Assembly (NCBI GenBank): GCA_022606425.2
Contig: JAHDVF020000136.1
Location: forward strand, 62,001 to 126,000
Length of the DNA: 64,000 nucleotides
Direction: 5' to 3'
Origin: Lepidostoma basale
Lineage: Eukaryota > Arthropoda > Insecta > Trichoptera > Lepidostomatidae
Position 1 is the stretch's first letter. Each line of letters begins with the position of its first letter. Positions 8,019-62,960 of this stretch are shown here, piece after piece. The notes beneath the pieces are model-generated. The model ran no database searches, was not told the origin of the DNA, and saw only the letters and a program-made list of their open reading frames with translations. The translations under genes and the position numbers were made by a program.

Positions 8019-11000
8019 GTAAGTAACTCTAATAATTAAAATCTGTAATTTTTTTTTAAATGCGCAAGTCTTCAAAAATAAATGTACACAAATATATTTT
8101 TTTCTATTATTTTATTGCTCAAAGATTTGAGCAAAACTGATCAAGTCAATTAAGTCCCTGTTCACGGAAATCACTGCTAGTGTTAGAGTAAATGGAAGTG
8201 TTGCAGCCTGGTTTAATATCAATTAAGATGTTAAATAGGGTTGTGTGTTCCCATGTTGTTTTATCTATATATGGACTTAGGTGGTATGAATATAGGTGCC
8301 AAAATGAGCGGAGTGTCAGTAAGCTTTCTGTCATATACGGATGACGCTGTTCTACTTACAGACAACTGAACTATAAATCCTGGTGTCTAGTATGTATGAG
8401 GTATGCATGCGATATGATCTGATGATGAATGTGAATAAGTCTATTTTTGAAAAAGAAGAAAGACAGTCTGCAACATTAGCGTGAATGGTGAATATCTGGA
8501 ACAAGTGTAAGAATTTGTATATTTAGAAAATGTGTTAACAAAAAATGGTCGAATGGAAAGGGATATTTAAAAAAGGGTTTGGGCAGACAATAAAGTAAAT
8601 GGAGCAATATAAATGGTTGAGATATTAGTTTTGTTAAACTCACTAATGTTAAACTTTCGTATGAAGCACTTAATTTGCGGTGTGACATTATTAAATAAAA
8701 TAATAATACACTTCACGTATTTGCATCAACACTATTTTATTTGGTAACACCAACCGGTTTCGCTCCCGCCGGAACTTCGTCAGGGGGAGAGAGTAAGCAG
8801 TTTAATCTTTCACCCTGACGAAGCTCCGGCGTGAGCGAAACCGGTTGGTGTTACCAAATAAAGTGGTGCTGATACAAATACATAAAGCATTTTATTATTT
8901 TATTTACTCACTAATGTTGGTTTGAGAATGCCCTCGTAAGCCGAAACAAATTTGTCACTACTATATATATAATTTATTATATAAATTAAATCCAAGTTGA
9001 ACCATTTAACAATCGTGTTTACTATAATAAATAATGCATTTAATGTTGTGAGTCCAAAAAAAACGAAAAAGCTTAGATGACAGTGTACACTGGTGATTTT
9101 GTACCGACTCTTATGTATGGAAGTGAAGCATGGAACTTGCAAAAGAAGGATGAAAGTAGAGTAAATGCAGTCAAAATGAAATCTATTAGACAAATGTGTG
9201 GAAAAACTGTGTATGAAGGAGTGTCAAATGAAAATATAATATGTGAATGTGGTGCGAATGAAAGTGTTATGAACAAAACAATGATATATACATCGAGATG
9301 CTTAGGACACAATTAAATAATGAAGGAAGAAAGAATGGTTAAAAATGATATGTTAACGATGGACCTTGATATAGAGAAAGATCGAAGAAAACGTGACACG
9401 ATCAAATAATTAAAAAAATTGATGGATGAGGGAAGATAATGGTTAAAATAATATTTTCAAGTAGTGGGAATAGAAAAGGAAGTTGAAGAAGATAAAATCA
9501 ATGAATTTTTAAAAGACGACAGATATGATAGAGTGTCGAATAAAAAATATATGAAGTAAATGCGATGCGAAAGATAGTATTATGAACAAAATAATGAAAG
9601 GATCATTTAAATGATTTGGACACATGGAAAGAACGAATGAAGAAAGAATGGTAAAAAAAACTATATGTTTAAGATGTAAATGGAACTAGAAATAGAGAAA
9701 GACCGAGGAAAACGTAGCCCGATAAAAATAAATCAAATATTGAATGTTGGTCATGTGAGAAGTCGGAGAAATCGATGCGTGTATGAATGTTGAGGAACGA
9801 AAGAGATACGAGTATGTCAGAAATAAACAGTGTGGCGATACGCTTTTTCTGCCAACCCCTGCGGGGTGACGGCGTGATGCTAAGTTAGTTAGTTTTCAAC
9901 GATTTGTCTTGATCAGTTTTAATTCAAGGATATATTCACTTTAGTAGATATAAATATATTAATTAATTAGAATTGCATGTACACAACGATAACTAATTAA
10001 ACTGTATAAAAATAACATTTATACAACAGTGCACGATTTATATTTTCAATAGCCTACACGTCTAGGGAAGATGTAATAAATCACCTTGCATTTATATGCA
10101 CGAGCTTTTTATTGTCTTCCGTGACATTATTCATACAATTTGAAACTCACTTAACGAAGGGGTAGCCAGAGGGGATGGACCGCCATACTGCTCTATCCTG
10201 ACACAACACTTAACCCTCTTCTACATTCATACATTGTGATCCTCGTCGATTTTTCCGATTTCGAACATGGCTATCATTTAAAAATTTATTAATTTCATCT
10301 TCTTAGACTACTTTTTGTATTCACACCACTTTTAAATATAATTTTTTTATCATCCATTTGTTACTTATGTCCAAACCATCTTAGTGTCCCTTATTTTATT
10401 AATTTAGGGCGCATTTTTCTAACATTCTGTCTTCGGTCTGGTATAGAATTCAATTGACTTATTATCTAACTATCACATATAACGAGAGCCTTCGTGGCCT
10501 AGTGGTAGATGCTTTGACTGCGACCCCCAAGGTCCCGGGTTTGATTCCGGTGATAGTAGTGTGATTGTCACATAATGACAGGTCATAAGTCCTGTAAGCG
10601 CCTCGGCCACCACATTCTGTTCCCAGAAAAAACAATTAAGATCTTCGTCTCTATTGAGAGACAATTTATTCTTATAAAAAAAAAAATATCCGCAATTGGT
10701 AAAATCCAGTATTTGTCTACAAGAATTTGTATAAATTCAAAATGTTGTATACTATATTTTCAACATTTTGAATGTATACAAAAACTTGTAGACAAATACT
10801 GGATTTTACCTATTGCAGATAAATTATTTTTTTATAAGGACTAACTATATTTTCAATTAAAAAAGCGAGTGCTGTAGGATATACATATAGTTGAATAGCA
10901 ATTAAATATTAATGGGTCCTTGTTTGACAAAAAAAGCTTCGTTTAATTAATTGCGCTCACTGAAATCAATTGCTTTGTCTGTATTTTTTTCCTATACAAT

Positions 11001-14000
11001 AAAATAGTTTTCTAATAAAGAACATTTAAATGCACACCGTTTTGTAGATTGATTAATTGGCTAATCGACTTTAGTGCAAAAAAGTTATATCACTGAAGCT
11101 AATAAGAAACCCGGCGATTTTTTTCACGCGTTCTTTTATATGTTAATTAATTTATATAGATGTCTACATAGATGGCCAACATACATAGATGTCTACTAAA
11201 CTACATAGATGGCCAACTAAAACTGACACGTGAAGATAGATATGGATTTGAAGTATATATACATCTTCCAAAATTTGTCATGCATGATCATAATAACAAT
11301 GGTGGAATGGGGAATGTTGTAATTACATAAAGCGTGCGCTTAACCCAACCAATGACAGGTCATAAGTCCTGTAAACACCTTGATCATCCATATTCAGTTT
11401 GCGTCTTCGTCTCTATTGAGATACAATTAAATTTGAATTAACCACCCTTTGGTGAAAATCCAGGATTTCGTATACAAGTATAAGTATACATTCACAAATA
11501 TTTGTAATTATTCTGGTCAATTCTTTGGCATATAGAATGGAATAATACTCCTGGCGGCTTCTAACAATACGTTAATAGGCGACAGCCTTCGCATTGTGTT
11601 AATAAGGTAGTTTGCTAAATGCTGAAAATCATTCTCCATAGATGGCGTTAGTGGGTCGGTTGTATAGGTTAATCTTGAAAAGATTCACAAGTGCAATCAA
11701 ATCTACATAGATGGCCAACTAAAACTGACACGTGAAGATAGATATGGATTTGAAGTATATATACATCTTCCAAAATTTGTCATGCATGATTATAATAACA
11801 AAGGTAAAATGGGGAATGTTGTAATTACATAAAGCGTGCGCTTAACCCAACCTATAAGTCCTGTAAACACCTTGATCATCCATATTCAGTTTCCAGTTTG
11901 CGTCTTCGTCTCTATTCAGATACAATTAAAGTTAATTAATTACATTGTAAACTGCAGTATCAGAAGATCGGGAATACACGCCGAGTGATAATATGTTTTA
12001 TTGTTATTTTAGAGCAATTGGAATGCCAAATCAATTATACAAGTGTAAAAAAGTTAACAACGGAAAAAACAGATTTAGTTAGTTTGTGAAAAAAAGGCAA
12101 TTAAAGCACCGATTATATAATACATGGAGATCGATTATTGCTGATATGCGTGGGCCTTTGCCTTAACCTTGATTTTCAATTTTGACCGTGACTTTCAATA
12201 TAGATTCAAGCCACGTCACACAGAGTAGGTGACTTGAAGGTGAACAGTGTATTTTGGATGAAAATTATCGTTTCATAGGGTTCTTTCACTTCACGTTCAA
12301 CAAAATAAAAAATAAAACAGGATTGTTGCACTTTTTTTTTTTTTTTTAAATTGTGCTTTCATCATGACAGCATGAGCCAAATCGATGTAAAGAGTATTAT
12401 AGCTATCATAGTGATTCCCGCGACATGTGATAGGTAGCTAATCTATCGCCATTTTATTGTCAAGTGAACTCTACACCAGACCAAAGAAAGTGTGACAATC
12501 ACACTGCCCTCGCCGGGAATCGAACCCGAAACCTTCGGGGTGACAGTCAATGCACTTATCACTCAGACACGAAGGTCGTCAAGGTCGTCTCTTGTAGTAA
12601 GGTGCATTGTATTTTTTTATTAGTGAATTCTGTTACAATCATGATTCAGCTGTTAAGCCCCTTTTATTATATTTATTATTTAAATAATGTTTTATTATAT
12701 TTATTATTATTTAAATAATATTATTTAAATACCATATTTCATATTTCATACCCAATTTAAACATTTATACTTTGTTCTACTATACTTTTAAACCGATCGT
12801 TTTTTAAGCGGTCACATTTAGATTTTTAAGATTTAAAACACGTCTTAATGCGCCCTTGAGATGATTACATCACAAAAACGGCGCTTTAAAAGTTAGCATA
12901 TTATTATTATTATTATTATAATGATTTTTTTAAACTCCTTCCACTTTTGTCTTTGTTTCGCCAGGCTCGCTGGCATCGACAGACTGGTTTCTTCGACGAC
13001 ATCGGTAGACCCAGTCTGTCGATGCCAGCGAGCCTGGCGACACCGGTCGCTGTCGAAATAAAGACAAAAGTGGAAGTAGTTAAAAATACATAATTTTATT
13101 TCATTATTATTTAAAATGTACTTCCATCAAGAGATTTCAGTAAAATCATTTGGTTAAATTCTTGATTTTTGAATATTATATTTGAATGAAGGCGTCTATT
13201 TTCTAGAACATTTATTATATTATATGTGAATGATATGTTTCGCTTATCCAAAGCATTTTTGATAATGCTATTAGACATTTGATAATGCCTTAGACATTTG
13301 ATAATGCCTTAGACAGACGAAATATGTCATTCACATAAATTATAATAAAACTTCTAGACTATATAACTTTTCATTCTTATAGATTATAATATTTTATATG
13401 GTGTTTTATATGACGACCTTCGTGGCCGAGTGGTAAGTGCATGACTATAAAACCGAAGGTTCCTGGTTCGACTCCTTGCAATGGCAGTATGATTGTCACA
13501 CTGTCATTGGTCTGGTAAAATTCACGTGACAATAAAATGGCGATAGATTAGAATCACGAGAATCAATATGATCGCTATACCCTTTACGTCGATTTGGCTC
13601 ACGATGTAATGATATAAAGAGCGATTCAACAAAATAATAATAATAAATTTTCCATAAGTAATTAATACAGTAATATAACATTGAGATTATCAACACAAAA
13701 TGGTATCTAAACAGCTGATACACGTTTAAAACGCTAACATTGTTTATTTGTTATAATATATATTTTTTATGGTTTGCTAATATTTCCACGACAAGAATGA
13801 AGGATACCCTATATACTTTATATAACATTACAATGTGAGGACAAGTGTATATACATGGCAAACATATGCACTGCAGTAATTACGCTTTATCGTACCGTGA
13901 GGTACGTGGACCGATCGTGACTATACAAATATGTTCAGGCCTGGAACCAAACCGAAGTGCTGTATAACGAATAAGGTAGTCTAGTTAACTGAAGGAGTAT

Positions 14001-26915: not shown

Positions 26916-27404
26916 TGCTACCAAACGTGAAAATTCACGCAATTATTTTGTTTTTCATTTTAATCATTGGTGTTCATATTGAATATCGCTGATGATAATT
27001 GAAGAAATATAATGTAATTGATCAAAAATAAATAAACATATATAATTTGCATAATTTATTATTAATGATAAATATTACAAATGTCGTAGAAAATAAATAA
27101 ATTAACATTATTTTATTAATTATCTTGGATTAATTATAGAGTTTCACACTTTTCAATATGGTAGACAGCTCAAGTTAATTACTGGATTTTTTCTGCTCAT
27201 ACATGTATGTACAATAATGATAAAAAGTATATCATATCAAGGACTAAAAGTTCTTATAAATTCGTAAAAATAATTACTTTGTACGTAATAAAATATATTT
27301 TATCAATGAGGAAGACATGATAAAAGTGCTATTAGGTCTCCATTAGATTGAACAATTATTTATTATTTCTTGAACATTGATGTAAATGTCAAATTAAATA
27401 ATTA

Positions 27405-28085: not shown

Positions 28086-28889
28086 TAAAAATTTAAACTT
28101 ATACATGTATATCTTCCACTGTTTTTTTCTCAAAATCACTATTTAATAAAACATATATTATCCCTTTTCCATTGTTTTAAATTAAATAATTAACTTGTTA
28201 TAATCTCTCAATTCTAAATAATTAGTACAAACGGGAATTAAGTGTTTATGATATTTTAACTTACATTCGATGGAAAAACTATTTTTGAACACTGTATGAA
28301 TTAAATTTTGATGATTCAGTCTATTCTTACAATATTTTTTAGTTATTATATAATTTAATATGTATTAACATGTGATCAATGAAAAACTGATAGAAGAGAG
28401 ATCTCAAAAGGTTCAAATGTTTTTTTATTGATTAATCCAACTTTGAATCTCTTGAGACCTTTTATTGCTCAGTATAGATTATAAAAACTTTTCATTTAAG
28501 CTAATTGAAATTAGAATTATGTTTTATAAGCTAGTTTTACATGAATTTAAGCTGGCTAGAGTTATTTAAATAGATTTTATGGTTAGATTCGTGAGATTTA
28601 AACCTGACGTACTTATTACTAAGCAGATTGGTATATCTAAAATACTATTAAGTAAACGGTTTGGTTCCGAATTTTGCAGAATTAATTATATTAATTTATT
28701 CACTCAAATGTAATTGTTTCAATCTAGAGTTTTACGTGAAACTAATTTCATATTTTATAAACGAAAATATATTCTGGTCCCCTGAAATTGACACAACTAT
28801 TTGATTGAAAGAAATTACCTCTAAGATAATTTTGAATATTTTCATTTTCGGCGAATTGTAACATCAAAAAACAATAATTGGTATTTTTA

Positions 28890-33022: not shown

Positions 33023-33058
33023 TAACAATAATATATCAAATGTCAAAATTTAAAATTT

Positions 33059-52400: not shown

Positions 52401-55400
52401 TATATTAATTATATAATATGGAGTTTTACATCATTGTTCAAGAAACACATATTTTTTGTTTTCTTTTTTCTAAGTTTTAATTCGATGGATTGGTTTGCAG
52501 CAAAGTCTAATATCTTTCCTGGTTCTTTGGATGCCAATTGGGCATTTAATGTGGTAGTTTCTTTTCCGTTGCTTTTTACATTTTTGTATACAAAATGTTA
52601 TTTAATCCCCATACATTTTTAGCTATTGAATACCAAATACAGCATGGCATTTTTTTTCACATATTATCGCCGGGAATCGAACCCGAGACCTTCGGTGGGG
52701 CTGACATGCCTGTTGCCACTCTCTCAAGAAGGCGGTTAGGTTTAATAAATATATTTTCTTCTATATTCGCCCTGAGGATTTATATTTGAAATAATAGATA
52801 AGCACTTTGTATTATCACAAAACTTTAATATTTTTTTAATTGCAGACATGTTTCAGTCCTAATTCTGTGCACAAATTTTAACAATAAATAAAAACAGAAC
52901 TTTTTGCACACAGAAGAAAAACCGAAACAAGTCTCTAACTAAAAAATCAATAAAGCGTTGTGATTATACAAAAATATTAAAATTTTTATAAACAAATAAA
53001 CATCATATTTGATTGTTTTTTGTTTTAAACGTCTACTTCTCCGGTGTTACAACCCTCGGTGGGTCTTAGCCTCCTCTACGAAACATCTCCATCCCATCCT
53101 GTCTCTTGCCGCCACCTCCCAGTCTTGCTGCTCCAGGATCCGATAGTGTGCCACGGCACCATCCAACATCCTACTGGATTATCATACAACACTCTTTTTC
53201 GTAGATTCAGATCCCCCATGCGGTGCAAGTGCTCCAGCCAGCGCAGTCTGTTAATCATTATAAACTTGACCACGCTGACGTCCTGGTATAGATCGTAGAG
53301 CTCTGTGTTGTATCTCCTTCTCCACGTCTGACCATCCTTAATGGTTCCAAAGATTCTGCGGCGGATCTTCCTTTCGAAGCAGCTTATCTTTATTTCATCT
53401 AGATACTTGAAGGTCCTGACCTGTTACCAACTCATTTAATAAGTAATTTAATGTTTCAGACCAAACGTTTGTGGAAGTAATGTTTTTTGATTCTTATTTT
53501 TTATTCGCTTTGATGCAATTCAGTATTAAAAATATTTGCATAAAAATGCAACGCATACTTCGTATTTATGTAGGTTCTTTGTAACTGCAATTGAATCAAC
53601 ATGTTAAGAGGTAATTCACACATTAATTAATGCAATGCGAATGGATGTTGACCTGAAGGCATTGCTTTAATACATGTAAGTGAAAAATGCTATACGATTT
53701 GTAATTGTGATGATATACAAGTTAAATGTTGGCTTTAAGTTTAAATTTGTTAACAAGAAAATATATAATTTACTAGCGGACCCGACAGTCGATGTCCTGC
53801 CCGAACGAAAACATTTTGTTTTCCTAGAACCAGAACATAGTGCCACCTACCGAGTCCAAATGTGAATCTGTAACATCCAGGGACCCACTCCGTTTAGGAG
53901 GAGTTTAACTACATATGCCCATACAAAATAATTATATAGACATATTATTATATAGATATATTATTATAAGATATGAAATAGGCAAAAACTGGATGTCATA
54001 AAACAAGAGAACTATAATAATTTGAATATTAGAGAGTGAGAGAGAAATACTTCGAGGGTTCTTTGCGAATACCTGTGAACAAGCGACTATGAAATACTTC
54101 GAATACGCATCGCGCATGTCCGATTATTAGTGCGCATGCTCGGAACGCCATTTTGAAATTAGTTTGCTTTATAACAGTCAGAATACAAGTTAATTAACCA
54201 ATTTTTAAGAGTAAAAAGAGAACCGTTCGTGGAGCACACAAGTTAAATTTATTACTGTTTACGATTGTACACTTAACCAAGTTTTTGAAGGGTAGAAAAT
54301 CTTTCTTTTTCGGTCTGTTCCCGTCCACTCCAGGACAAAGGCCTCCTCCATTCGCTTCCTCGCCACTGTCTTGTGCAGACTGCATCTAGGATATTCCGAC
54401 ATGTATATTCAGGTCATCCTTCCATCGTAGTGGCGGTCACTCTGCACTTACTTCCGTGAATATTTTACGGGTTGCAACTAGTAATTAATATAAACGATCA
54501 TTCTTAAAAAAGAGTTGGATGGAGTAGGATCCTCGAGGTTCTATAGACAACAGTGTGCTCGGAGAAGAAGTATTCAACAATTGTCTATCAACTTTTCATA
54601 ATCATTTATCTTCTCTCAGTATTAATTTCACTTTCTCTTACGCACATAACAGATTACTTGGAATTTTACCCGGAATAATAAGAGAACCTACAGACATGTA
54701 ACGTGTGTCTACACACAAAGTATGAATATTCATAGTTATATATGTTGCGAGATCTTACGGAAATGCGTATAATATGGAAATGTAATCATTGTAGCATGCT
54801 AATAATGTATGCACATATTGCACATATTCGTAACAGTTCCCTATGAATGTGATAACATTACATATAATTTTACTAGCTACTCTGTATACCTATGTGTTTT
54901 AATAAATAATAGTAGATTACTCTTTTGAGTATATTAATAAAAATAAAATCTACCATATTTTTATACATTGTAAATTCTTACACATAGAAAGGACATCTGT
55001 GGTTCGAAACATGTTTATGAAAAGTGCAAAAATGTGTTTATGAAAAGTGCAAAAAAGAAACACAATCTATTTTGGATTCCCCATACATAAAAAAAATTCT
55101 ATGTATATACATAAAATTATATACGTGTAACGTGAATAATCATAATATCCTAATATCTCTTAATATTCTTCGTCAACCTGATGAAGATGTTAAGAAGATA
55201 AGACACAGAGGATGTCGTGCTGGCAGGAAAGTGAAACGACCACCTCTCGCCGTATCAAGTGCAGAATCGACGAAAGGGAACCGGGTATCAGACTCTTTCC
55301 GGGAGAAACACATTGGAATTGGAAGCTGGAATGCTCGGTCAATTAGAAATAAGGAAGATGAAATAGATAATATCTTCAAAACGCAAAACCTACATCTATT

Positions 55401-58400
55401 CACCCTAACAGAAACGTGGCACGAAAGCTCCGATTCTATATGTCTAAAAAATATGCAAGCTCTTGGTTATGTGACGGTAGATGAAGCGAGACCCATAAGA
55501 AAAGAAAAATCAAGGGATAACCTTAATTTTACAAACCATGGTGGTATTGTCACCATCGCCCGGCAAGGCTTGCATATTGAGAGAATTAAAATCGGAGTTT
55601 TCGAGACGTTTGAACATCTTGGGTGTCGCGTGTCATCGGGAAGAACATCTTTCACCCTTATCACTATTTACCGACCAGGATCTAAATCAACCTGCGTTAA
55701 ATTTTACGAAGAATTCTCGGAACTGCTACAATTCGCGGCCAGCCTCTCTGAACATTGGATGATTGTTGGAGACATCAATATCCGATTAGAGAGAACCTCA
55801 TCGTCTAGTGATAAATTCCTAGACATGATGGAATGCTATGGGTCCAAGCAATGGGTTACCGAGCCAACACATACCGCAGGTGGATTACTGGATATCCTCA
55901 TCTCCAACAAAAATGCTGTTAACACTCCGGCAAGTGTTATAGATATTGGACTCTCGGACCACAAAATGATTCGTACGGAGATCCCTTTCCATCCACCACG
56001 ACCCGTGTTTCAAACTTTCACTTCACGTACATGGCGCTCTTTCAATTTTGAAAAATTTGAAAGAGACTTGATGAACTCACATGTTTGTGAAAAATATAAT
56101 AACAATACCCTCGAAATGTCATTAGATGAATTAGTTCAAACCTACTACAATGTTTTTACTTCTCTTCTCGACAAGCATGCTCCACATTCGACAAAAACAC
56201 TCCGGGTGCGAGTGTCCAATGCATGGTTTGATGAAGAATGTCGTAGAAACAAGAGACTAATGCGTAGGTTTGAACGTATGTACCGAAACACAGGCCTAAG
56301 TTCTTCAAGAGAAGCCTGGGTGAGATCGCAGAATTCTTTTAGAGACCTGATCAAGAAGAAAAGATCGGAGTACTGGAAATGTAAAATTGAATCGGAAAAG
56401 GAAAATCCCCGACATCTATGGAATTCCGTTAAATCAGTACTCGGAAATAATCAACAAGAAAAGGCCTCTACCAAGTTATCTCCTCAGGACTTCGCCCAAT
56501 TCTTTGAAGATAAAATCGCTGTGATTCGTGCAACGACTTCATCTACAACACCACCAACTTTCACGACATATGAGGGAAAACTTCTAACTAAATTTAATAT
56601 CACAACACCTCAAGAAGTGATTAAACTTATCTTAAACGCACCTAATAAACAGTGTTCGCTTGATCCGATTCCGACATGGCTTCTCAAGAGATGCTGTCAC
56701 CATGTTGCTCCATTTTTAGTCAAAATTTTTAACAAATCTCTTCTAACAGGACAAGTCCCCTTTTTGCTCAAGAAAGCTATTGTTTCTCCCATATTAAAAA
56801 AACCTCAACTAGATTCCGAAAATCTTAGTAACTTCCGGCCCGTCTCAAATCTACCTTTCATCTCTAAAGTTCTTGAAAAAATTGTAGCCTCCCAAATTTC
56901 TAATCACCTTTCGACAAATAATATTTTGTCTAAATTACAATCCGCCTACAGACGTTTCCATTCAACGGAGACGGGATTGCTTAGAGTCATGTCAGATTTA
57001 GTACTGGCAAACGAATCGGGCAAATTGGCACTGCTCTCCCTTCTGGACATGAGCGCTGCGTTTGACACAATTGATCACTCATATCTTATCCAACGATTAG
57101 CGATCACGTATGGTTTTAGAGGTAATGCCATAGACTGGCTAAATTCATATCTGTCGGATCGTTCACAAGCTGTGCAGCTAGCAGGTAAAAAATCCTCATT
57201 TACTAATATCCAATCTGGTGTGCCACAAGGCTCTGTTTTAGGACCCCTTTTATTTATCATGTTTACAAATGACGTTGCCAAAATAATAGAATCCTTTGGC
57301 CTCCTCTCACATTGCTATGCTGATGATCAGCAACTTTATTTTTTCTGCAACCCTGATGACACCAAACATCTTACGTCAACAACGGTCAACTGCATTGATG
57401 CCATATCCAGATGGATGGCATCAAACAAACTTAAACTAAATCCATCCAAAACGGAATTTCTCTGGACTTCTTCCGCAAAGCGCCAACATCTTATCGATCA
57501 TTCCTCAATTTCAACAGCTGACAATGATATCGTTCCCAAAAACTCCACAAAGCTTCTTGGTGTTTATCTTGACGCAAATCTGTCTCTAAAATCCCAAATT
57601 AATAACACGGTCAGCGCTAGTTTCTTCCACCTAAGACGATTAAAATCCGTCAAAAGGAGTATTCCCCACGACACTTTCAAAACTCTTGTAAATTCATTCG
57701 TTGTGTCACGACTTGATTATTGTAATGGAATTTATGCAAACATTCCAAAACAACAAATAAACAAACTTCAATCTGCGTTCAATGCAGCAGCAAGGCTCAT
57801 TAAAGGCATTCCAAAAAAGTCTCATATAACACAACATCTCAAAGAACTTCACTGGCTTAAAAGTCCAGAAAGAATCCAGTATAAACTCTGCTGGACAGTC
57901 TTCAAAGCGCTACATGGAATGGCACCAAGTTATATATCTGAACTCTGTATAACGGACAGCCTAAATTCACGGAAATCCACACTTCGCTCGGCGAACTCCT
58001 CAGCAATAGGAAGATTAGTTGAGCCGAAGCGTTGCCCCAGTACAAATTTCGGGGATCGAGCGTTCGCGGTAGCCGGTCCATCAGCTTGGAACAATCTCCC
58101 TTCACACCTTAGATGCATAAATGATCCGACAGATTTCAGATCTAAATTGAAAACCCATCTTTTTCATATTTCATACCCAATTTAAACATTTATACTTTGT
58201 TCTACTATACTTTCAAACCGATCGTTTTTTAAGCGGTCACATTTAGATTTTTAAGATTTAAAACACGTCTTAATGCGCCCTTGAGGTGATTACATCACAA
58301 AAACGGCGCTTTAAAAGTCAGCATATTATTATTATTATTATTATTAATAAGGTATATGATTTAATAAATACAAAAATGCACGATAACTTTTTTTTGTTTT

Positions 58401-61249
58401 TAAAAAAAAAATATCAAATAAAAAATTGATTCGAATAATCTAGTAATGTGAGGTAGAAACTCTAATAATACTTTTGTATGCTTCAACGGTCATTTAACAG
58501 ATGGCTCTCACATCGGATAATATGAAAAATAAATTAAAAATTCAAAGTTTTAAGCTATGTAAGCGTACGAGTAAAATTCAGTGTAATTAATATAAATGAA
58601 AACGTCTATCTTCTAGGAGTTTTATTTTATTTTAGATGGAATGAAAATGACGCCCTTTTGAGGCATTATCTTCTTCCGTTTTCCTCGGTCTGCCTCGACT
58701 TCGTACCCCATTTACATCATCAACCTATACTTTTTTAACCATTCTTTCTCCATCCATGCGTTCCATATGTCCGGACCAACGCAGCGATCCTTTCATAATT
58801 TTGTTTATAATACCTTCTTCCGCTCTACATTCCTTTCTTATATCAGCATTTGAGATTCTGTCGTATATCGTTCTACCACACATACGTCTTAGGGACCTCA
58901 TCTCTACCGCATTTATTCTGCTCTCATCCTTCTTCTGCCAGTTGCATGCTTCGCTTCCATACATTAGATAACAATACATTTGATAATGCCTTAGGAGGGC
59001 CAAACATGTCATTCCATCTAAAATATTATAAAACTCTTAGAAGACAGACGTTTTCATTCATATTAATTGTTAAATATGAAGTTTTACATCATTGTTCAAG
59101 AAACAATAAATAAAATTCAGTGCCTTCTTTTAGATTAACCCTCCCGGAATTAGAAAAGTATTGTCGTGGATACGTCATCATTACGGCAATCCTGAGGTGC
59201 TGGTGACGGAGGCAGGGGTGTCCACCGGTCCCGGGCTGCTGGACCTGGGCAGGGTAGCACACCTGCAGCAGACCCTAACGCAAGTGGCCCTGGCGGCTGA
59301 AGAAGGATGCAATGTGACAGCCCTGGCTGTCTGGTCCCTCATGGATAACTTTCAGTGGACTAGCGGGTATACGTAAGTATTTTTCTTAAAATAATAAATC
59401 CAATTTTTCATACAATGAAAACAAAATTATATATATAATTAAAATGTGTCTTTGTTATTATATAATTAAAATGTGTCTGCCGGTTTCGGCAGCTAGCTGT
59501 CGAAACCGGTCGAAGACACAAAGATCAGTGGATTTTAACTAAATTTACATTTTAAAAAGATTTTTTTTCATTATTTTTTTATTTCATTATTTATAATACA
59601 ATGAACTTCTACCATGACATTTCAAATTAACAATTTTTTTTATAATTAAACTCCTAGAAGACAAACGTTTTCATAAATATTATTTATATACGTTATTTAC
59701 GTTATCATACCTGTATTAATTATTAAATATGGAGTGTTATATCATTTATTTTTGTGAATATAATACTTAAACTTATACTTGTATACAACTTCCAAAAATT
59801 TATCATGCATGATCATAAAAACAAAAGGTGGAATGGGGAATGTTGTAATTACATAAAGCGTGCGCTTAACCCAACCAATGACAGGTCATAAGTCCTGTAA
59901 ACATCTTGATCATCCATATTCAGTTTCCAGTTTGCGTCTTCGTCTCTTTTGAGATACAATTAAATTTGTTATATCATTGTTCAAGAAACAATAAATATTT
60001 TGTACATGTACTTACACTATTGCCAGACTCCCTAGGAAGTCGTAAGAAGAACGTCTATATCTTTGGTATGCTCGTGTCACATGGTATTCTTAAATGACCG
60101 GCGTTTTGGAAACCGTTGCAGACTCCATCTTATGTGTTGATCATGAAGTTCGACTACTTTTAAGATGGAGTCTGCAAAGGTATCTGATACATCGGTCGAA
60201 GTATATACTATTGTATTAGTCCCAATAAATATAAATATGAATTTTTCAAAACTAACAAACAAACTAACCATCACGCCGTTTCTACAGAGGGGTAGGCAGA
60301 GAGGATATACCGCCATACTCCTCTGTCCTGACATACTTCTCGAGCTTTCTGTACATTCATACATCGATATGCGCGCTCGTCGATTTTCCTGATTTCGAAA
60401 ATAGCCACTTTTTAGTATTTTAAAGATAATCAAGTGATTTTACTGAAATCTCTTGATGGAAGTTCATTTTACAAACTGATCCAGTCTGTCGATGCCAGCG
60501 GGCCTGGCGAAACCGGCCGCTGTCGAAATAAAGACAAAAGTGGAAGTAGTTAAAAACATCGTTTTATTTTATTATTATTTTAGTATTTGATTAATTTTAT
60601 TATGGCATGCTTTCCTTGGTCTTTCACGGATTTTCTTTCCACAAACGCTGCTTGTATACAACATACCCAAGTTGTATAATTGTAACTATCAAATTATAAT
60701 AAAACGCCTATTTTCAATATATCTAAACAAGTAAATTAATAATATTCCACAAATTTAATATTGATAATCTTTTTCATCTTCGTCCTGTCAAAGGCAAGCT
60801 AATTTGTAGCGGTGGCCTTAAAAATAACTATATTTCTCTTTTCTTGCACTGTGGTGGAAGGTTTGGCCAACTTTGTGGTGTTTTTATGGGTGCAGAATAT
60901 GATTACTAATAATAATGACGATTGTCATAATAACAATTATTTAAATAATATTTTTATTTAATGCAAATTTATGTTTACATACTAGTATGTATTTTTTTTT
61001 TACAGAGAACGCTTTGGACTTTACGAAGTGGATTTCCGAAGCAGCAAGAGAACCAGAACTATCAGGATTTCTGGTTTAGTGTACAGGAACATCATAGAAA
61101 CCAAAGTCATCAATCCTTTCTACTCTCCGACCATTCCTGGACACCCTTACGCTTCAGCTGCATCCCGTTCTCTGTCATTCCAGATAGCCACAATGTGGGC
61201 AGTGACTTTTATAACCTTATCAATTCTAAGGTTTATTTTTAACAGTTAA
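37405..61249 (+). CDS. GH1 myrosinase/beta-glucosidase-like gene B, altered active site
   Basis: Complete GH1 gene, seven coding exons: 37405-37454, 39143-39243, 40420-40998, 42272-42366, 51561-51869, 59134-59372, 61006-61249. They sum to 1617 nt (538 residues plus stop) with all junctions GT/AG and in phase. Order of motifs: signal peptide (residues 1 to about 22), [16 protein letters not shown] (Q42), [20 protein letters not shown] (acid/base Glu replaced by G190), NYYTS, VTEAG (nucleophile E404), WSLMDNFQW (usual Glu replaced by Q452), hydrophobic C-terminus. Length fits the family (about 500). Known GH1 enzymes need both glutamates for normal hydrolysis; plant myrosinases lack the acid/base one (Gln) yet act on glucosinolates. 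So B may be a specialised hydrolase or a pseudoenzyme; activity is not established. Introns total 22 kb and hold an intact LINE. Confidence 0.9.
37624..37976 (+). mobile_element. RTE-type LINE 3' copy in gene B intron 1
   Basis: [36 protein letters not shown] is readable; it ends TTAGTTAGTTAGTTT. Its tail meets the tail of the next copy. Confidence 0.85.
37977..38303 (-). mobile_element. RTE-type LINE 3' copy, tail-to-tail with previous
   Basis: Starts TTTAACTAACTAAC, then 'aatcacgccgtctacccggatgggtaggc'. The two TTAG tails form a 'ttagttagttagtttaactaactaac' palindrome. It is more diverged than its partner. Confidence 0.8.
38303..38350 (+). ncRNA. decayed hammerhead motif
   Basis: CUUAUGA (G5 to U), A, a weak stem II, then GAAACAUGUCGAG. 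The CAUG stem III and the GUC site are present, but the core is mutated. Confidence 0.4.
38386..38832 (+). mobile_element. RTE-type LINE 3' copy
   Basis: Plus-strand C-terminal block with stops, ending 'cccctccgggaaacggcgtgatgg' and TTAG repeats at 38815-38832. Confidence 0.8.
39143..39243 (+). CDS. gene B exon 2 ([16 protein letters not shown])
   Basis: Acceptor GTTGGTAG, donor GTAGGT; the first base completes Cys17. Encodes the N-terminal GH1 signature with the glucose-binding Gln (Q42) and Glu44. It ends after one base of the Asp51 codon. Confidence 0.92.
39330..40020 (+). mobile_element. LINE RT relic (family 5)
   Basis: Translates, with breaks, to [35 protein letters not shown], the sequence just after the catalytic FADD box of a non-LTR RT. 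C-terminal text related to 41630-41990 follows ('gataaatatctccgacagcgacagc'). Non-functional. Confidence 0.65.
40420..40998 (+). CDS. gene B exon 3 (acid/base region, G190)
   Basis: 579 bp; acceptor TTTTTTAG, donor GTAAAT; enters with two bases and leaves with one. Encodes [50 protein letters not shown] and VWITFNGP. The codon at 40836-40838 is GGG where GH1 enzymes have GAG/GAA; one transition explains the change. The rest of the exon is undamaged and in frame, so this is not general decay. Confidence 0.93.
41130..41300. repeat. foldback family A, one arm
   Basis: 'attgtatctcaatagagatgaagatg', 'acaggacttatgacctgtcattggttgggttaagcg', 'acaacattccccatttcgcc'. No inverted partner nearby. Confidence 0.75.
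41630..41990 (+). mobile_element. LINE C-terminal relic (family 5)
   Basis: Shares 'tgatagatatctccgacagcgcc', 'atttcaagaactc' and neighbouring text with 39780-39900. The ordered similarity shows a second decayed copy of the same LINE in the next intron. Confidence 0.55.
42272..42366 (+). CDS. gene B exon 4 (95 bp)
   Basis: Acceptor ACTTCCAG, donor GTAAGT. Encodes [18 protein letters not shown], then [14 protein letters not shown]. Same length and phases as gene A 7924-8018, where the corresponding start is GKLGMASLVLWSEP. Confidence 0.92.
42367..43009 (+). other. start of gene B intron 4 (9.2 kb)
   Basis: GTAAGT donor, then AT-rich DNA. The short minus-strand frame 42738-42926 is Asn/Tyr-rich and probably chance. 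Confidence 0.5.
43010..43567 (+). mobile_element. non-autonomous retroelement using the RTE 3' end (copy 3)
   Basis: Full-length by comparison with 5611-6165. 5' end 'aatattcttttaaagttcttgctggtgttgg'. Three internal copies of '(a)cggtggatacgtg..aacataaattaaat' lie at about 43070, 43125 and 43240. A central segment 'gatgcctattggtggcgatgaggttcgcaaccc' follows, then the RTE 3' end with the hairpin ACCCTTTCGGGG and (TTAG)3. GGTTCGCAACC weakly resembles a pol III B box but no A box is placed properly. Confidence 0.82.
43605..43930 (-). mobile_element. LINE 3' fragment (family 4)
   Basis: 'accgtctctctactgcggatgcaagcctc', 'catcagcccatctttttaggttcgatgc' and 'ctgtctggcgatatgtcctgc' follow the minus-strand order of insect LINE C-termini. 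It is badly decayed. Confidence 0.5.
43935..44232 (-). mobile_element. mariner-type transposon, 5' end fragment
   Basis: The minus strand starts at TA-CAGGGTCTTTTCTC (44231) and, ~200 bp in, encodes [21 protein letters not shown], then [15 protein letters not shown], the N-terminal helix-turn-helix of a mariner transposase. It stops abruptly at ~43935 where LINE text begins. The catalytic domain is missing. Confidence 0.72.
44254..44292 (+). ncRNA. hammerhead motif, stem II weakened (family G)
   Basis: Stem I ACAC/GUGU, CUGAAGA, U, then stem II GCAAG...CUCC that no longer pairs properly, GAAA, CAUG, UC. The core is intact, so the loss lies only in stem II. Confidence 0.6.
44254..44345 (+). 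repeat. foldback family G, half element
   Basis: Ribozyme motif followed by 'tttttaatactttgtagattataaacaaagttattttcaatta', the mirror of 31575-31690. It directly follows the mariner end at 44232. Confidence 0.75.
44424..44461 (-). ncRNA. hammerhead motif, left arm
   Basis: Minus strand: GCC, CUGAUGA, A, U, CUC-loop-GAG, U, GAAA, CCGA, UU, GGC. Core intact and stem I GCC/GGC pairs; stem III (CCGA) is no longer self-complementary. Confidence 0.6.
44512..45092. repeat. foldback element, family A, with a 90-bp terminal hairpin
   Basis: One family A arm (44515-44770) and then an almost perfect hairpin (44907-45090) whose arms read from 'acaacattttaaatgtatac' inward to 'caattgtatctc' and back. 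The two end segments are head to head with a loop of a few bases. Confidence 0.85.
45110..45145 (+). ncRNA. hammerhead ribozyme, right arm
   Basis: Stem I GCC (45110-45112) with GGC (45143-45145); CUGAUGA 45113-45119; extra A; stem II GCUU/AAGU with tetraloop GCUC; GAAA 45133-45136; CCGG; cleavage after UU 45141-45142. All core bases fit. Confidence 0.75.
45170..46430. other. intron sequence, no gene
   Basis: AT-rich; the only structure seen is the small palindrome at 45458-45506. Confidence 0.45.
45458..45506. repeat. 21-bp perfect inverted repeat
   Basis: ATTTTTGGCATAAGATGAGTT and its exact inverse, separated by 7 bp. No relation to the larger foldback families. Confidence 0.9.
46437..47385. 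repeat. 23-bp minisatellite split by a LINE
   Basis: Unit close to 'ccatcgtcagtttatcgttagat', about nine diverged copies at 47180-47385 and two or three at 46437-46505. The LINE 46520-47160 lies between; 'cgttcgtcttt' occurs on both sides (46491, 47166) as a probable TSD. Confidence 0.8.
46520..47160 (-). mobile_element. LINE C-terminal fragment (family 3 type)
   Basis: A 94-codon minus-strand frame: [66 protein letters not shown]. Typical post-RT region of an insect RTE/Jockey-type LINE. Only the last part of the element remains. Confidence 0.75.
47423..47460 (-). ncRNA. hammerhead-like motif with U3-A8 (family F)
   Basis: Minus strand: UUGAGAA (C3 to U and G8 to A), U, stem II GCC/GGC with extra pairs, GAAA, self-complementary CAAAUUUG, UC. 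Position 3 and 8 changes would still form a pair. Confidence 0.5.
47474..47512 (+). ncRNA. hammerhead-like motif with U3-A8 (family F), right arm
   Basis: UUGAGAA, U, GCC...GCC (stem II broken by one change), AAAA for GAAA, CAAAUUUG, UC. More decayed than the left arm. Confidence 0.45.
47600..48255. other. intron sequence with family B remnants
   Basis: At 47815 and 47945 the family B flanks 'cgttcgttttctagtagta' and 'gcttttagaaaatagaca' are recognisable; the hairpin core is lost. Confidence 0.45.
48260..48620 (+). mobile_element. RTE-type LINE fragment
   Basis: 'ctaagatggcagtgaagagtggtgttcttgtaccgac', 'tatggaagtgaagcatg', then the C-terminal block with deletions; no tail. Confidence 0.75.
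48705..49110. repeat. foldback family A, partial copies
   Basis: One arm at 48705-48900 and end segments at 48960-49100 ('tattgagatacaatta', 'acccgcaatgggtaaaatccagtatttgtatacattcg'). Confidence 0.7.
49190..49340 (+). mobile_element. RTE-type LINE 3' end, short
   Basis: 'cgaagtcataaaaatagacgagtgtgcatgc...ctctgcccacccctccggtgaaatggcgtcatggttggtt'. Only the last ~150 bp. Confidence 0.65.
49580..49705 (+). mobile_element. LINE C-terminal relic
   Basis: [23 protein letters not shown] resembles the final residues of RTE-type proteins (RAQDRxxWRxxxEA). Confidence 0.4.
49748..50090 (-). mobile_element. RTE-type LINE 3' copy
   Basis: 'aacaaaccatcacgccgtttccccgcaggggtagg', then the C-terminal domain on the minus strand to 'ccgctctacaatcctg'. 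The hairpin loop is CCCCGCAGGGG. The tail reads (TTTG)n. Confidence 0.8.
50205..50410 (+). mobile_element. LINE C-terminal fragment (family 3)
   Basis: [26 protein letters not shown], then [23 protein letters not shown]: a clear post-RT block, 5'- and 3'-truncated. The SINE fragment at 50473 follows. Confidence 0.75.
50473..50520 (-). mobile_element. tRNA-SINE 3' end fragment
   Basis: 'gaacccaattactgtatacaatttgtttttagct' is the inverse of the 3' end of 17331-17551. Confidence 0.6.
50600..50782 (+). mobile_element. (GAA)n-tailed LINE 3' end (family 3)
   Basis: 'gggacgtcagggttggtagaagactgctg', 'gtgatcgccaacgtaagggggacc', then GAAGAAGAAG. The 5' portion is strongly diverged. Confidence 0.7.
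50822..50865 (-). ncRNA. decayed hammerhead (family D)
   Basis: Minus strand: CUCAUGA (G5 to C), U, GUCAAC/GUUAAC, GAAA, CAGCUG, UC. The core mutation should abolish cleavage. Confidence 0.5.
50914..51478 (-). mobile_element. RTE-type LINE copy just upstream of a gene B exon
   Basis: Minus strand from the (TTAG) tail and CCCCGAAGGAG hairpin to the start 'ctaccattttagctt' at 51478. An 'acacttttcctgatatatttctctcg' duplication lies near 51020-51060. Its 5' end is ~80 bp before the exon acceptor at 51559-51560, parallel to 16137-16692 in gene A. Confidence 0.85.
51561..51869 (+). CDS. gene B exon 5 (GWFANPLF...NYYTS)
   Basis: Acceptor GTAATTACAG, donor GTAAGA; phase 0 both sides; 103 codons. 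[36 protein letters not shown] and INYYTSLI are typical GH1. It aligns with gene A 16743-17048 with one extra codon. Confidence 0.93.
51870..52228 (+). other. intron 5 start with LINE debris
   Basis: At 52020-52150 'aacctgaaactacgccaaagatgg...ctatatatggc...gttgaaggcttttgagatttgg' is a decayed copy of the segment at 50165-50300. Nothing else. Confidence 0.4.
52229..52450. repeat. foldback element, family B, best hairpin
   Basis: Near-complete arms (52240-52310 and 52324-52395) around 'aatgtccaattaacatt', then the family 3' flank 'aatatggagttttacatcattgttcaagaaac'. The right arm reads UUGAUAA, U, GCC...GGGC, GAAACAUGCC; the left arm is its inverse. Confidence 0.9.
53044..53425 (-). mobile_element. 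LINE C-terminal fragment
   Basis: Minus strand: [39 protein letters not shown], then [28 protein letters not shown] typical non-LTR post-RT domain, here of a lineage not otherwise seen in the window. Confidence 0.7.
53430..54300. other. intron sequence, nothing recognised
   Basis: AT-rich with a short GC-richer patch at 53770-53900. No exon fits between the gene B exons 51869 and 59134, whose phases join directly. Confidence 0.45.
54304..54460 (-). mobile_element. LINE 3' fragment (family 4)
   Basis: 'cggtctgttcccgtccactccaggac', 'gactgcatctaggatattccgacatg', 'tcaggtcatccttccatcgtagtggcggtc' match the text at 7540-7610 and 1080-1120. Confidence 0.6.
55024..58185 (+). CDS. intact CR1/L2-type LINE endonuclease-reverse transcriptase
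   Basis: A 1053-codon open frame inside a gene B intron, same strand. Domains: ~80-residue N-terminal stretch of doubtful origin (the true start may be downstream, e.g. near the [10 protein letters not shown] basic motif); apurinic-type endonuclease with SWNARSI, LTETW, IVGDINI and GLSDHKM (about residues 95-325); reverse transcriptase with [25 protein letters not shown] and the catalytic CYADDQQLY (about 560-800); C-terminal domain ending HLFHISYPI. All catalytic motifs are intact and there is no frameshift, so the element was active recently and might still be. Clade placement (CR1/L2/Crack-Daphne group) is by motif style only. Confidence 0.93.
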   Translation: MQKCVYEKCKKETQSILDSPYIKKILCIYIKLYTCNVNNHNILISLNILRQPDEDVKKIRHRGCRAGRKVKRPPLAVSSAESTKGNRVSDSFREKHIGIGSWNARSIRNKEDEIDNIFKTQNLHLFTLTETWHESSDSICLKNMQALGYVTVDEARPIRKEKSRDNLNFTNHGGIVTIARQGLHIERIKIGVFETFEHLGCRVSSGRTSFTLITIYRPGSKSTCVKFYEEFSELLQFAASLSEHWMIVGDINIRLERTSSSSDKFLDMMECYGSKQWVTEPTHTAGGLLDILISNKNAVNTPASVIDIGLSDHKMIRTEIPFHPPRPVFQTFTSRTWRSFNFEKFERDLMNSHVCEKYNNNTLEMSLDELVQTYYNVFTSLLDKHAPHSTKTLRVRVSNAWFDEECRRNKRLMRRFERMYRNTGLSSSREAWVRSQNSFRDLIKKKRSEYWKCKIESEKENPRHLWNSVKSVLGNNQQEKASTKLSPQDFAQFFEDKIAVIRATTSSTTPPTFTTYEGKLLTKFNITTPQEVIKLILNAPNKQCSLDPIPTWLLKRCCHHVAPFLVKIFNKSLLTGQVPFLLKKAIVSPILKKPQLDSENLSNFRPVSNLPFISKVLEKIVASQISNHLSTNNILSKLQSAYRRFHSTETGLLRVMSDLVLANESGKLALLSLLDMSAAFDTIDHSYLIQRLAITYGFRGNAIDWLNSYLSDRSQAVQLAGKKSSFTNIQSGVPQGSVLGPLLFIMFTNDVAKIIESFGLLSHCYADDQQLYFFCNPDDTKHLTSTTVNCIDAISRWMASNKLKLNPSKTEFLWTSSAKRQHLIDHSSISTADNDIVPKNSTKLLGVYLDANLSLKSQINNTVSASFFHLRRLKSVKRSIPHDTFKTLVNSFVVSRLDYCNGIYANIPKQQINKLQSAFNAAARLIKGIPKKSHITQHLKELHWLKSPERIQYKLCWTVFKALHGMAPSYISELCITDSLNSRKSTLRSANSSAIGRLVEPKRCPSTNFGDRAFAVAGPSAWNNLPSHLRCINDPTDFRSKLKTHLFHISYPI
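58186..58347 (+). mobile_element. 3' UTR and (ATT)n tail of the intact LINE
   Basis: A 160-bp UTR with the paired block gcgcc...ggcgc (58275-58310) and a terminal ATT microsatellite. The solo copy at 12736-12916 and the older copy ending at 3671 share both features. The stem is a likely RT recognition structure. Confidence 0.85.
58590..59110. repeat. foldback family B split by an RTE fragment
   Basis: Left arm 58590-58667, right arm 58971-59110 ('acatttgataatgccttagg', 'aaacatgtcattccatctaaa', 'ctcttagaagacagacg'). The loop holds 58668-58970. Confidence 0.85.
58668..58970 (-). mobile_element. RTE-type LINE internal fragment inside a hairpin loop
   Basis: Minus-strand frame [32 protein letters not shown] and [20 protein letters not shown]. 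It lacks the 3' hairpin and tail although it begins next to a CTTCTTCC run, so the copy is 3'-incomplete or rearranged. Confidence 0.8.
59134..59372 (+). CDS. gene B exon 6 (nucleophile E404; NFQW)
   Basis: Acceptor TTCTTTTAG, donor GTAAGT; phase 0 in, phase 2 out; 239 bp as in gene A. Encodes [29 protein letters not shown] (nucleophile Glu at 59209-59211; Asn of TENG is Ala) and [14 protein letters not shown] (Gln at 59353-59355 in place of the sugar-binding Glu). Confidence 0.93.
59455..59535. repeat. family C-like short palindrome
   Basis: 'gtgtctgccggtttcggcagctagctgtcgaaaccggtcgaagacac' is self-complementary around AGCTAGCT and carries GAAACCGGUC without the CUGANGA box. Confidence 0.6.
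59775..59965. repeat. foldback family A, one arm
   Basis: 'acaacttccaaaaatttatcatgc', 'ggaatggggaatgttgtaattac', 'taacccaaccaatgacaggtcataagtcctg', 'cgtctcttttgagatacaatta'. Confidence 0.75.
60080..60210. repeat. family H-like palindrome, decayed hammerheads
   Basis: Arms 'gaccggcgttttggaaaccgttgcagactccatctta' and 'taagatggagtctgcaaaggtatctgatacatcggtc'. The order U-GGAG...UCC-AAAACG is that of the left arm at 26681, but no intact core is left. Confidence 0.55.
60258..60430 (-). mobile_element. RTE-type LINE 3' fragment
   Basis: 'aaactaaccatcacgccgtttctacagaggggtagg' to 'cgctcgtcgattttcctgatttcg'. Short and diverged. Confidence 0.75.
60432..60585 (+). repeat. family C half element with hammerhead-like arm
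   Basis: Outer flank 'gtgattttactgaaatctcttgatggaagttcatttt', then stem I CAGU (60482-60485)/GCUG, CUGUCGA, U, GCCAG/CUGGC, GAAA, CCGG, CC. A6 is U and the cleavage-site U is C. The missing left arm makes it a monomer. Confidence 0.7.
61006..61249 (+). CDS. gene B exon 7, terminal, hydrophobic C-terminus
   Basis: Acceptor TTTTTTACAG; the first base completes Thr from AC|A. Encodes [20 protein letters not shown], a linker with [19 protein letters not shown], and a final ~20-residue hydrophobic stretch ([19 protein letters not shown]) ending NS-stop. Small residues before a C-terminal hydrophobic tail suggest a GPI-attachment signal; a tail anchor is the alternative. Confidence 0.9.
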
Positions 61250-61308: not shown

Positions 61309-61499
61309 TATCTTTTAGCACTAACAGCTTTCTTCTTTCTAAATAAGTCATATCAAATGTTCATAACGAAACAAGTCATTCTAATAAACTTTAATAAACC
61401 CCTTCTATATTCGCCATAACTTTGTGTTGTAGATGTTAAATGTTTTTGATATGTCAGGCCAAAACTGACCACATTTGTAAAAAAATATATAGTATTTTA

Positions 61500-62175
61500 A
61501 ATAATTAATACGAATGAAAACGTCAGATTTCTAGAAGTTTTATTATATTTAATGGGAATGATATGTTTCGCCCTTCTAAGGCATTATCGAATGTGACGAA
61601 ACTTCAACTCGTTGCAGTTTATAAACACAAGTAAATGGAGCAGAATATGGTAAATAACGAAAATTTATGTGACTTCATAAATTTTTAACGTCAATTGAGT
61701 CTACGCGCACAGGATGGCGATTTTATTTTATATATAATACTTAGAGTCATTAGTCACCTTGAAATATGTAAAATCATTTGTAAACAATTTGTAAAAATAT
61801 GTTTCTCTTAGAAACACTTTATTTTTTTCCTACCTCAAATAACTTATTTTTGATCTATTCAATATCATTCCCCTAACAATGTAACCATTGTTATAAAATT
61901 TCTTAACGAGTTCCAAGAAACACTTTCCAATATTTCTGGACCTACCCTCTTGGTTAAAAATGTATAAAGTCACATTTCGTTAATTATCATATAATGCTCC
62001 ATTTACTAGTGTATATAAACTGCAACGAGTTGAAGTTTCGTCACATTTGATAATGCCTTAGAAGGGCGAAACGTGTCATTCCCATAAAATATAATAAAAC
62101 TTCTAGAAAACTGACGTTTTCATTCGTATTAATTATTTAATATGGAGCTTTACATCATTGTCCAAGAAACAATAA
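61500..62175. repeat. foldback family B with a second inverted repeat nested in its loop
   Basis: Outer arms 61505-61591 and 62047-62130 are family B. Inside, 'tgtgacgaaacttcaactcgttgcagtttata' (61591 on) is inverted at 62010-62046, with 'aagtaaatggagca'/'tgctccatttact' as further pairing. The ~370-bp interior is unrelated AT-rich DNA. Confidence 0.85.
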
Positions 62176-62206
62176 ATAAGTATTTTAAATTTTTTTTGTG
62201 AATGTA

Positions 62207-62885
62207 TAGGTACTTATACTTGTATACGAATAATGGATTTCACCCATGGTGGGTAATTAATTCATGAAATTTAATTGTATCTCAATAGATACGAAGATGC
62301 AAACTGGAAACTGAATATGGTTGTCTTTTTGTCTTACATTGTTTTGTCTTACATTGAGATATAATTAAATTTCATGAATTAATCACCCACCATGGGTGAA
62401 ATCCAGTATTCGTATACAAGTATAAGTATACATTCACAAAAAAATATTGTAATCATTCTGGTCAATTCTTTGGCATATAGATGAGTGACATCTCCAGGCG
62501 GCTTCTAACAATGTGCTAATGGCGATAGCCTTCACATTGTGTTAATAAAGTAGTTCTGCTAAATGCTAAAAATTAATCTCCATAGATGGCATTAGTGTGT
62601 GGATTATATAGATTAATCTTAAAAATTAACATATGTAATCAAAATCTACATAGATGGCGTATTAAAACTGACATGTGAAGTTAAGCATAGATTTGTAACA
62701 TATATACAAACTCCAAAAATTTGTCTTACATGGTCATAAAGAAATAGGTGGAATGGGGAATGTTGTAATTACATGAAGCGTGCGCTTAACCCAACCAATG
62801 ACAGGTCATAAGTCCTGTAAACACCTTGATCAACCATATTCAGTTTCCAGTTTGCATCTTGGTTTCTATTGAGATACAATTAAAT
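62207..62885. repeat. foldback element, family A, long copy
   Basis: Starts with a ~100-bp-arm hairpin (62208-62430, 'atacttgtatacgaataatggatttcacccatg...' and inverse). It continues through 'cttctaacaatgtgctaatggcgatagcc' and 'gacatgtgaagttaagc', and ends with the core 'cccaaccaatgacagg...tattgagatacaattaaat'. Confidence 0.85.
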
Positions 62886-62910
62886 GAGAGTATTTTAAAT
62901 ATTTATATTT

Positions 62911-62960
62911 ACATAATATCACTGATGAAGGGCTTGTTAGTCCGAAACATGTTATGTATT
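62911..62960 (+). ncRNA. hammerhead ribozyme-like motif, monomer
   Basis: CUGAUGA (62922-62928), extra A, perfect stem II GGGCU/AGUCC with loop UGUU, GAAA (62944-62947), self-complementary CAUG, UU. Only stem I is weak: AUGU after the site could pair with ACAU at 62911-62914 across an internal loop. Downstream 'aataaagtgagtg' resembles the flank of the family at 45150. Confidence 0.6.

Follow-up and report, generated by a model that had tools for sequence, protein, structure and literature searches.

The window analysed here, 64,000 nucleotides (64 kb) of contig JAHDVF020000136.1 of Lepidostoma basale (Trichoptera), is eukaryotic in character, with GH1 exons, the open reading frame (ORF) of a long interspersed nuclear element (LINE) and many repeats. 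Among these repeats, a hammerhead ribozyme layout is common to seven families (D1, D2, E, Ep, H, F and G), and most of the hammerhead units are arranged as outward-facing pairs within foldbacks. Family sizes, tails and target-site duplications (TSDs) are given throughout as found in this one window.

A strict descriptor (CTGANGA, stem II, GAAA, a self-complementary stem III, U-H and a stem I of at least 3 bp) identified three units in the 64 kb, at 8815(+), 31681(-) and 45113(+), against an expectation per window under a second-order Markov model of 0.03 (60 controls) or, with looser scoring, 0.05 (20 controls). When stem I was not required, all six fixed bases of CTGANGA were matched by seven units (GAAA at 8761-, 8837+, 31042-, 31659-, 32995-, 45133+ and 62944+), versus none in 20 controls. 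These full cores fall in families D1, D2, E, Ep and H; in them CUGANGA is followed, after a single additional A or U, by a short helix II, then GAAA, then a self-complementary segment and lastly U with C or U behind it. The self-complementary stem III segments are CCGG, CATG and CAGCTG, with CCGA in the left unit of D2, and the extra A or U, located between A9 and helix II, is present in 18 of 18 tabulated units. CUGANGA, GAAA and the U-H site are all found in units of D, E, Ep and H, whereas F and G deviate from the standard core at positions 3 and 8 jointly (TTGANAA). An earlier reading of this DNA by a model (the sequence-only reading) had described a hammerhead layout shared by several unrelated families; that observation is confirmed, as the layout recurs in seven, and the three cores it ranked best are exactly the strict-descriptor set. 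Its statement that many divergent families coexist is borne out as several divergent families in one window, but its assignment of CUGANGA to F and G has to be replaced by TTGANAA.

Foldback D1 (8651-8905; arms 8692-8796 and 8802-8906) carries hammerhead units at 8809-8852(+; core CTGACGA, stem III CCGG) and 8746-8789(-; core CTGACGA), and a tail of about 41 nt (8651-8691) on its left arm only. Foldback D2 (44384-45243, outer ends approximate) carries units at 45107-45148(+; core CTGATGA, stem III CCGG) and 44421-44464(-; core CTGATGA, stem III CCGA), a tail on its right arm only (from about 45200) and a nested foldback (44893-45092), and no TSD was found at its ends. The E units, at 31644-31687(-; core CTGAAGA, stem III CATG) and 44252-44294(+; core CTGAAGA), are single. 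The Ep unit is at 62916-62959(+; core CTGATGA, stem III CATG), and pairing in its stem I begins at the third position. In foldback H1 (30966-31193) the unit is in the left arm (31025-31072, -; core CTGATGA, stem III CAGCTG) and the right arm has its hairpin deleted; a second H unit, H2, is at 32978-33025(-). Foldback F1 (47374-47560), with a tail that continues rightward, holds units at 47421-47460(-) and 47474-47513(+), both with core TTGAGAA and stem III CAAATTTG; the best F arm reads TTTGAGAATGCC...GGCGAAACAAATTTGTC, and a single arm, F2, at 8921-8960(+) has the same core TTGAGAA.

Family G is the most numerous, with the majority sequence TTTGATAATGCCTTAGAAAGGCGAAACATGTC (16 units), and forms seven foldbacks: G1 (1527-1640; units 1527-1562(-) and 1568-1603(+); left outer end not delimited), G2 (4209-4368; 4252-4287(-) and 4290-4325(+)), G3 (13173-13387; 13228-13263(-) and 13297-13332(+)), G4 (27357-28089; 27453-27488(-), truncated, and 27995-28030(+)), G5 (52215-52451; 52277-52312(-) and 52326-52361(+); TTGATAA), G6 (58584-59110; 58639-58674(-), 5'-truncated at the core, and 58979-59014(+), TTGATAA) and G7 (61503-62178; 61556-61591(-) and 62046-62081(+)). 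A single G unit at 22219-22254(+) has the core ATGATAA. At the centre of G3, 19 bases of the G unit, comprising the core and the 5' half of stem II, are present three times (13258-13315), as if by template slippage at the palindrome.

Outward-facing unit pairs were found in 11 foldbacks and inward-facing pairs in none, with 22 of the 32 entered units being paired. This count leaves aside nine E or H matches (E at 38297+, 26827+, 26723-, 1385- and 45856-; H at 50865-, 21220-, 20918- and 15683+) and 15 weak G matches (edit distance 8-12); the E matches 26723- and 26827+ would form one further outward pair. Seven of the 11 foldbacks are compact, with at most 40 nt between the two cores, while in D2, G4, G6 and G7 the cores are 306-654 nt apart, and the repeat-like stretch between the G6 arms resembles, by eye, other repeats of the window. 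Truncation of an arm at the core was seen in the left arms of G4 and G6. The sequence-only reading had each arm of the palindromic copies holding one outward unit, which agrees with these counts; as corrections to it, E1 (31646-31685) and E2 (44254) are single with no foldback partner found, and the interval that it gave (8748-62960) is too narrow for G, which reaches out to 1.5 kb.

In the alignment of G, a conserved 3' part after the hammerhead is followed by a tail on some arms only. Local alignment shows the tail on a single arm of G1, G4, G5, G6 and G7 (the left arm in G4 and the right arm in the others, 42 nt long in G6); it is absent from both arms of G2 and G3 and from five single arms, and is on both arms of no G foldback. 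The tails of D1, D2 and F1 are likewise on one arm each by alignment. The extra length at one end amounts to 35-42 nt. TSDs of 12-13 bp were found at the ends of 3 of the 11 foldbacks: D1 (ACTCACTAATGTT, 13 bp, at 8638-8650 and, at the arm end, 8906-8918; shuffle P 0.003), G6 (TAAAATTCAGTG, 12 bp, at 58572-58583 and 59111-59122; P 0.003) and G7 (AGTATTTTAAAT, 12 bp, at 61491-61502 and 62179-62190; P 0.007). In each of the three, one copy of the duplication directly adjoins the short end, and the other copy lies just beyond the tail. Moreover, arms within one G foldback are more alike than re-paired arms (P 0.02). Among the 25 longest inverted repeats of the window, 13 hold none of the outward pairs, thus not every foldback here is of the hammerhead type.

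Since public Rfam models were silent on these units, the hammerhead pairing was fixed beforehand and then counted on aligned units. In the set of seven units from D1, D2, E and Ep, paired cells made up 85.7% versus 56.1 +/- 5.3% in shuffles (0 of 500), two-sided changes numbered 14 versus 5.7 (0 of 500), and slid structures were at most 46.4% paired; three row pairs in this set are related, and the shuffles take no account of kinship. A safer test is the exact permutation of 3' strands with one unit per family (n=7 families), which gave P values of 0.006 for stem I and 0.001 for stem II. In addition, a compensated stem II pair distinguishes H1 from H2, and the left unit of G5 likewise differs from the other G units by one compensated stem II pair. 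A covariance model (R1) was then trained on D, E and Ep only, H being excluded because its units were misaligned by MAFFT. The best match of R1 outside the training set was H2 (17.2 bits, E 0.01), the best score in a control of 93,734 bases of phage (eight viral-contig stretches) being 13.1 bits; H1 scored 13.2 bits (E 0.18). Seven of the 28 non-training matches lie in register on 19 G units, versus 0.18 by circular shifts (P 0.0002), with single G matches being not significant (E at least 0.65), and two lie on H. Separately, five pattern scans of a viral contig collection matched 13, 0, 0, 2 and 5 stretches, and these 20 were set aside as chance matches, judged by eye from the matched letters; one pattern scan of a genome contig collection had zero matches.

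The motif, its orientation, the covariation across families, the one-sided tails and, in three cases, the TSDs are direct observations, and as a whole they are probably best explained if the foldbacks are short, ORF-less insertions of Penelope-like elements (PLEs) with putative hammerheads. A small RNA, with a 3' tail region and, close to its 5' end, a minimal type I hammerhead, would be copied by a PLE reverse transcriptase/endonuclease acting in trans; first-strand synthesis would begin inside the tail, with either nicks on both target strands or a self-primed second strand. One insertion would thereby yield two head-to-head copies with their 3' ends outward, so that the hammerheads point outward; one copy would usually retain extra tail, and 12-13 bp of target would be duplicated. 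Cleavage by the hammerhead would take place in tandem or multimeric RNA, as a dimer formed via the self-complementary stem III, and not in the foldback's own transcript. As RNA, the D1 foldback is predicted to be a single hairpin (-131.8 kcal/mol) that buries the ribozyme; thus the foldback's own RNA should not cleave, and cleavage would need two sense copies.

Several reports on PLEs describe such features. In the Penelope of Adineta vaga, an inverted pseudo-long terminal repeat (pLTR) is reported to complete the insert, with a 31-bp tail optionally on one inverted pLTR, TSDs of 8-10 bp, head-to-head repeats as the commonest arrangement and unrelated sequence between solo pLTRs (PMC3846280). 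For an anole PLE protein, reverse transcription is reported to start inside the RNA at two adjacent sites, accounting for the tail, with no apparent difference described between top- and bottom-strand start sites; its hammerhead needed the protein in order to cleave, and cleavage was dispensable for in vitro insertion (PMC11167929). PLE hammerheads are described as usually minimal, without helix III (PMC6155905). Given head-to-head insertion, outward hammerhead pairs are an expected by-product and not a new device. The 11 outward inverted pairs here correspond to pLTRs, and the one-sided tail of PLEs is found in five of the G foldbacks as well as D1, D2 and F1, with none detected in G2 and G3. 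The RNA-mediated, Penelope-like origin proposed by the sequence-only reading is hence supported by the inverted pLTRs, the one-sided tail and the TSDs of three foldbacks, and its overall interpretation partly so. With respect to the tails themselves, that of D1 is similar to that of D2; both open with ATGTCA (D1 on the - strand, D2 on the +) and, read by eye, align in frame (MSHRKLSASYES for one). In E2, F1 and G, the tail begins with ATGGARTTYTAC (MEFY). As a PLE pLTR reportedly takes in the beginning of the ORF (PMC3846280), the D1/D2 and the E2/F1/G tails may be relics of two PLE start regions.

A number of results weigh against this reading. The Rfam scan (at gathering thresholds and at E up to 10; whole window plus stretches of 81, 81 and 86 bases) returned no hammerhead family, leaving at background the public models that the sequence-only reading had put forward as a check; several of the Rfam microRNA matches in the window sit on palindromes. 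Isolated-unit folds were not more stable than shuffles in five of six cases. Among G copies, paired columns were 80.0% paired versus 80.9% in shuffles, with no excess of covariation, as expected of dead genomic copies; the compensatory changes foreseen by the sequence-only reading are thus clear across families and absent among the G copies. R1 had no match on F, and 2601-2642(-), which belongs to no described family, outranked H1 at 14.5 bits (E 0.071). This stretch reads CCCTGATGA and is flanked by a partly matching stem I, without GAAA. The count of one-sided tails is compatible with chance (five tails in G and no two-tailed pair, P 0.34; about 0.13 with D1, D2 and F1 added; both by hand), TSDs above shuffles were found in none of the other 8 of the 11 foldbacks, and no PLE reverse transcriptase or GIY-YIG domain was found in the 36 ORFs scanned of 63 (at least 85 aa), where the sole reverse transcriptase was that of the LINE. 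A non-autonomous PLE copy need not carry a reverse transcriptase ORF.

Strong palindromes, some of them with TSDs, would also be produced by cut-and-paste miniature inverted-repeat transposable elements (MITEs) with long terminal inverted repeats, in which the hammerhead layout would be due to chance or borrowed, and the 13 long inverted repeats without outward pairs may be ordinary MITEs. However, the ends are unequal in all three TSD-bearing foldbacks (D1, G6 and G7, the three in which matching ends were judged), one end being 35-42 nt longer, and such ends would not be the product of a transposase acting on terminal repeats. Furthermore, a covarying ribozyme layout is common to divergent families, some arms are cut off at the core, and hundreds of bases separate the arms in four foldbacks. 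A MITE origin is therefore unlikely. Formation of the foldbacks after insertion, through another, independent insertion or through local duplication in inverted orientation, would be in line with the density of family copies and the loss of parts from some arms (H1), yet in D1, G6 and G7 the TSDs enclose the whole foldback, and G arms match their own partners better than re-paired ones, so this route is a little less probable again. The least probable of these origins, and one already disfavoured, is that of retrozymes, that is, tandem hammerhead repeats moving through circular RNA, to which the sequence-only reading had also likened the elements. Axolotl retrozymes are reported to have a weak palindromic helix III and to cleave better as dimers (PMC7229834), which speaks for it, but Tandem Repeats Finder revealed no tandem array of whole units in the window (only the triplicated part of one G unit at 13258-13315), the pairs are inverted and not direct, and, in the case of D1, the ribozyme is predicted to be hidden in the hairpin.

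Within the Penelope-like explanation, the core of F and G calls for separate consideration. Both families retain U4, G5, A6, A9, G12, A13, A14, A15.1, U16.1 and C17, with U3 and A8 replacing C3 and G8, two bases that pair with each other once the ribozyme is folded. The U3-A8 pair is formed in 14 of 16 aligned G units and in all three F units, and the pair at positions 3 and 8 is Watson-Crick in all seven family representatives (P 0.048; weaker if F and G share descent). The idea of a U3-A8 core as unknown in nature is ruled out by PMC3088659, where, according to Perreault and colleagues, several natural hammerheads have C3 and G8 covarying to U3 and A8; ribozymes with covarying nucleotides at C3/G8 are said there to be active in vitro. 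U3-A8 is a rare, already published natural variant, and its setting here is the consensus of an amplified mobile family. The chances are close to even, though on the lower side, that F and G are catalytically dead, their fold being a passenger or being kept only because it serves the PLE particle structurally or in dimerisation; this concerns F and G only and is compatible with a Penelope-like origin of the foldbacks. It would fit a pairwise mutational scan of a type III hammerhead, in which only the C3G/G8C swap is reported to rescue activity and other motif mutants were low (PMC9901934), the report that catalytic mutants of a PLE hammerhead left in vitro insertion unaffected (PMC11167929), the lack of covariation beyond shuffles among G units, and the 2-bp stem I of the tabulated G units. 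The natural covariation and stated in vitro activity in PMC3088659 argue against it, as does the fact that the two altered core positions are exactly pairing partners. More tentatively, F and G could be a PLE-type lineage that spread with an exchanged catalytic pair, either as an active, possibly protein-assisted dimer ribozyme, or with a fold retained to pack RNA into the PLE particle rather than to cleave.

If either form of this last reading is true, the lineage separates fold from chemistry, and the role of PLE hammerheads, whose function a 2020 review (PMC7761336) calls a mystery, thereby becomes testable. An exchanged base pair in an abundant family could thus help show what PLE hammerheads do, and several hammerhead families in one window, with the standard core beside one amplified exchanged-pair family, offer natural comparisons. 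The foldbacks further suggest that palindromic 'MITEs' of repeat libraries can be reverse-transcribed PLE debris, which would change the classification and dating of such foldbacks.

Elsewhere in the window, the LINE ORF (55021-58185) encodes endonuclease and reverse transcriptase domains, its best relative being a metagenome sequence of 44% identity that is uninformative about the host, and a GH1 exon (40401-41066) has its best match to PDB chain 8in1_A (371.8 bits; next 260.6), which we take to be a sea hare enzyme. A perfect tandem array (29402-29696) consists of 8.4 copies of a 35-bp unit with 100% match. A further foldback family with GAAACCGGTC-like ends is present at 12928-13086 and 17590-17722, with weak R1 matches of 9.6 and 9.1 bits, respectively; by eye, the right unit at 13 kb has CTGTCGA for CTGANGA (A6 to U) and GACA for GAAA, and the family is perhaps a decayed hammerhead family. 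Related long near-perfect foldbacks at 36391-37001, 44893-45092, 62211-62428 and 10676-10832 are, by eye, without a hammerhead unit and are apparently ordinary palindromic repeats. A tRNA-Gly-like sequence at 17334-17405 (33.5 bits), of which similar but degraded copies lie near 10490 and 13420, suggests a tRNA-derived short interspersed nuclear element.

Among the literature matches listed, titles and beginnings of abstracts named no hammerhead-bearing foldbacks beyond the papers cited here, the PLE hammerhead papers of 2014 and 2017 being outside the comparison. The foldbacks share with the Adineta vaga Penelope, as described in PMC3846280, an inverted, head-to-head arrangement of pLTRs, one of which carries a short tail, short TSDs (in three foldbacks), palindromic junctions and the capture of unrelated sequence between solo pLTRs. 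They differ from it in that no PLE ORF was found in the foldbacks here, in the compactness of 7 of the 11, and in TSD length (12-13 bp here versus 8-10 bp). Animal retrozymes, according to PMC7229834, are likewise non-autonomous with a type I hammerhead, those of axolotl having a weak palindromic helix III, but are tandem direct repeats with circular RNA, whereas the pairs here are inverted. Minimal type I PLE hammerheads (via PMC6155905 and PMC7761336) have in common with the units here the core, the short stem II and a self-complementary stem III that suits dimers; the extra nucleotide between A9 and helix II is a candidate difference from them, and the U3-A8 pair of F and G is another difference. 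The same double exchange is that of the U3-A8 hammerheads in PMC3088659, which are reported as several individual ribozymes, whereas in this window an amplified repeat family has it as its consensus.

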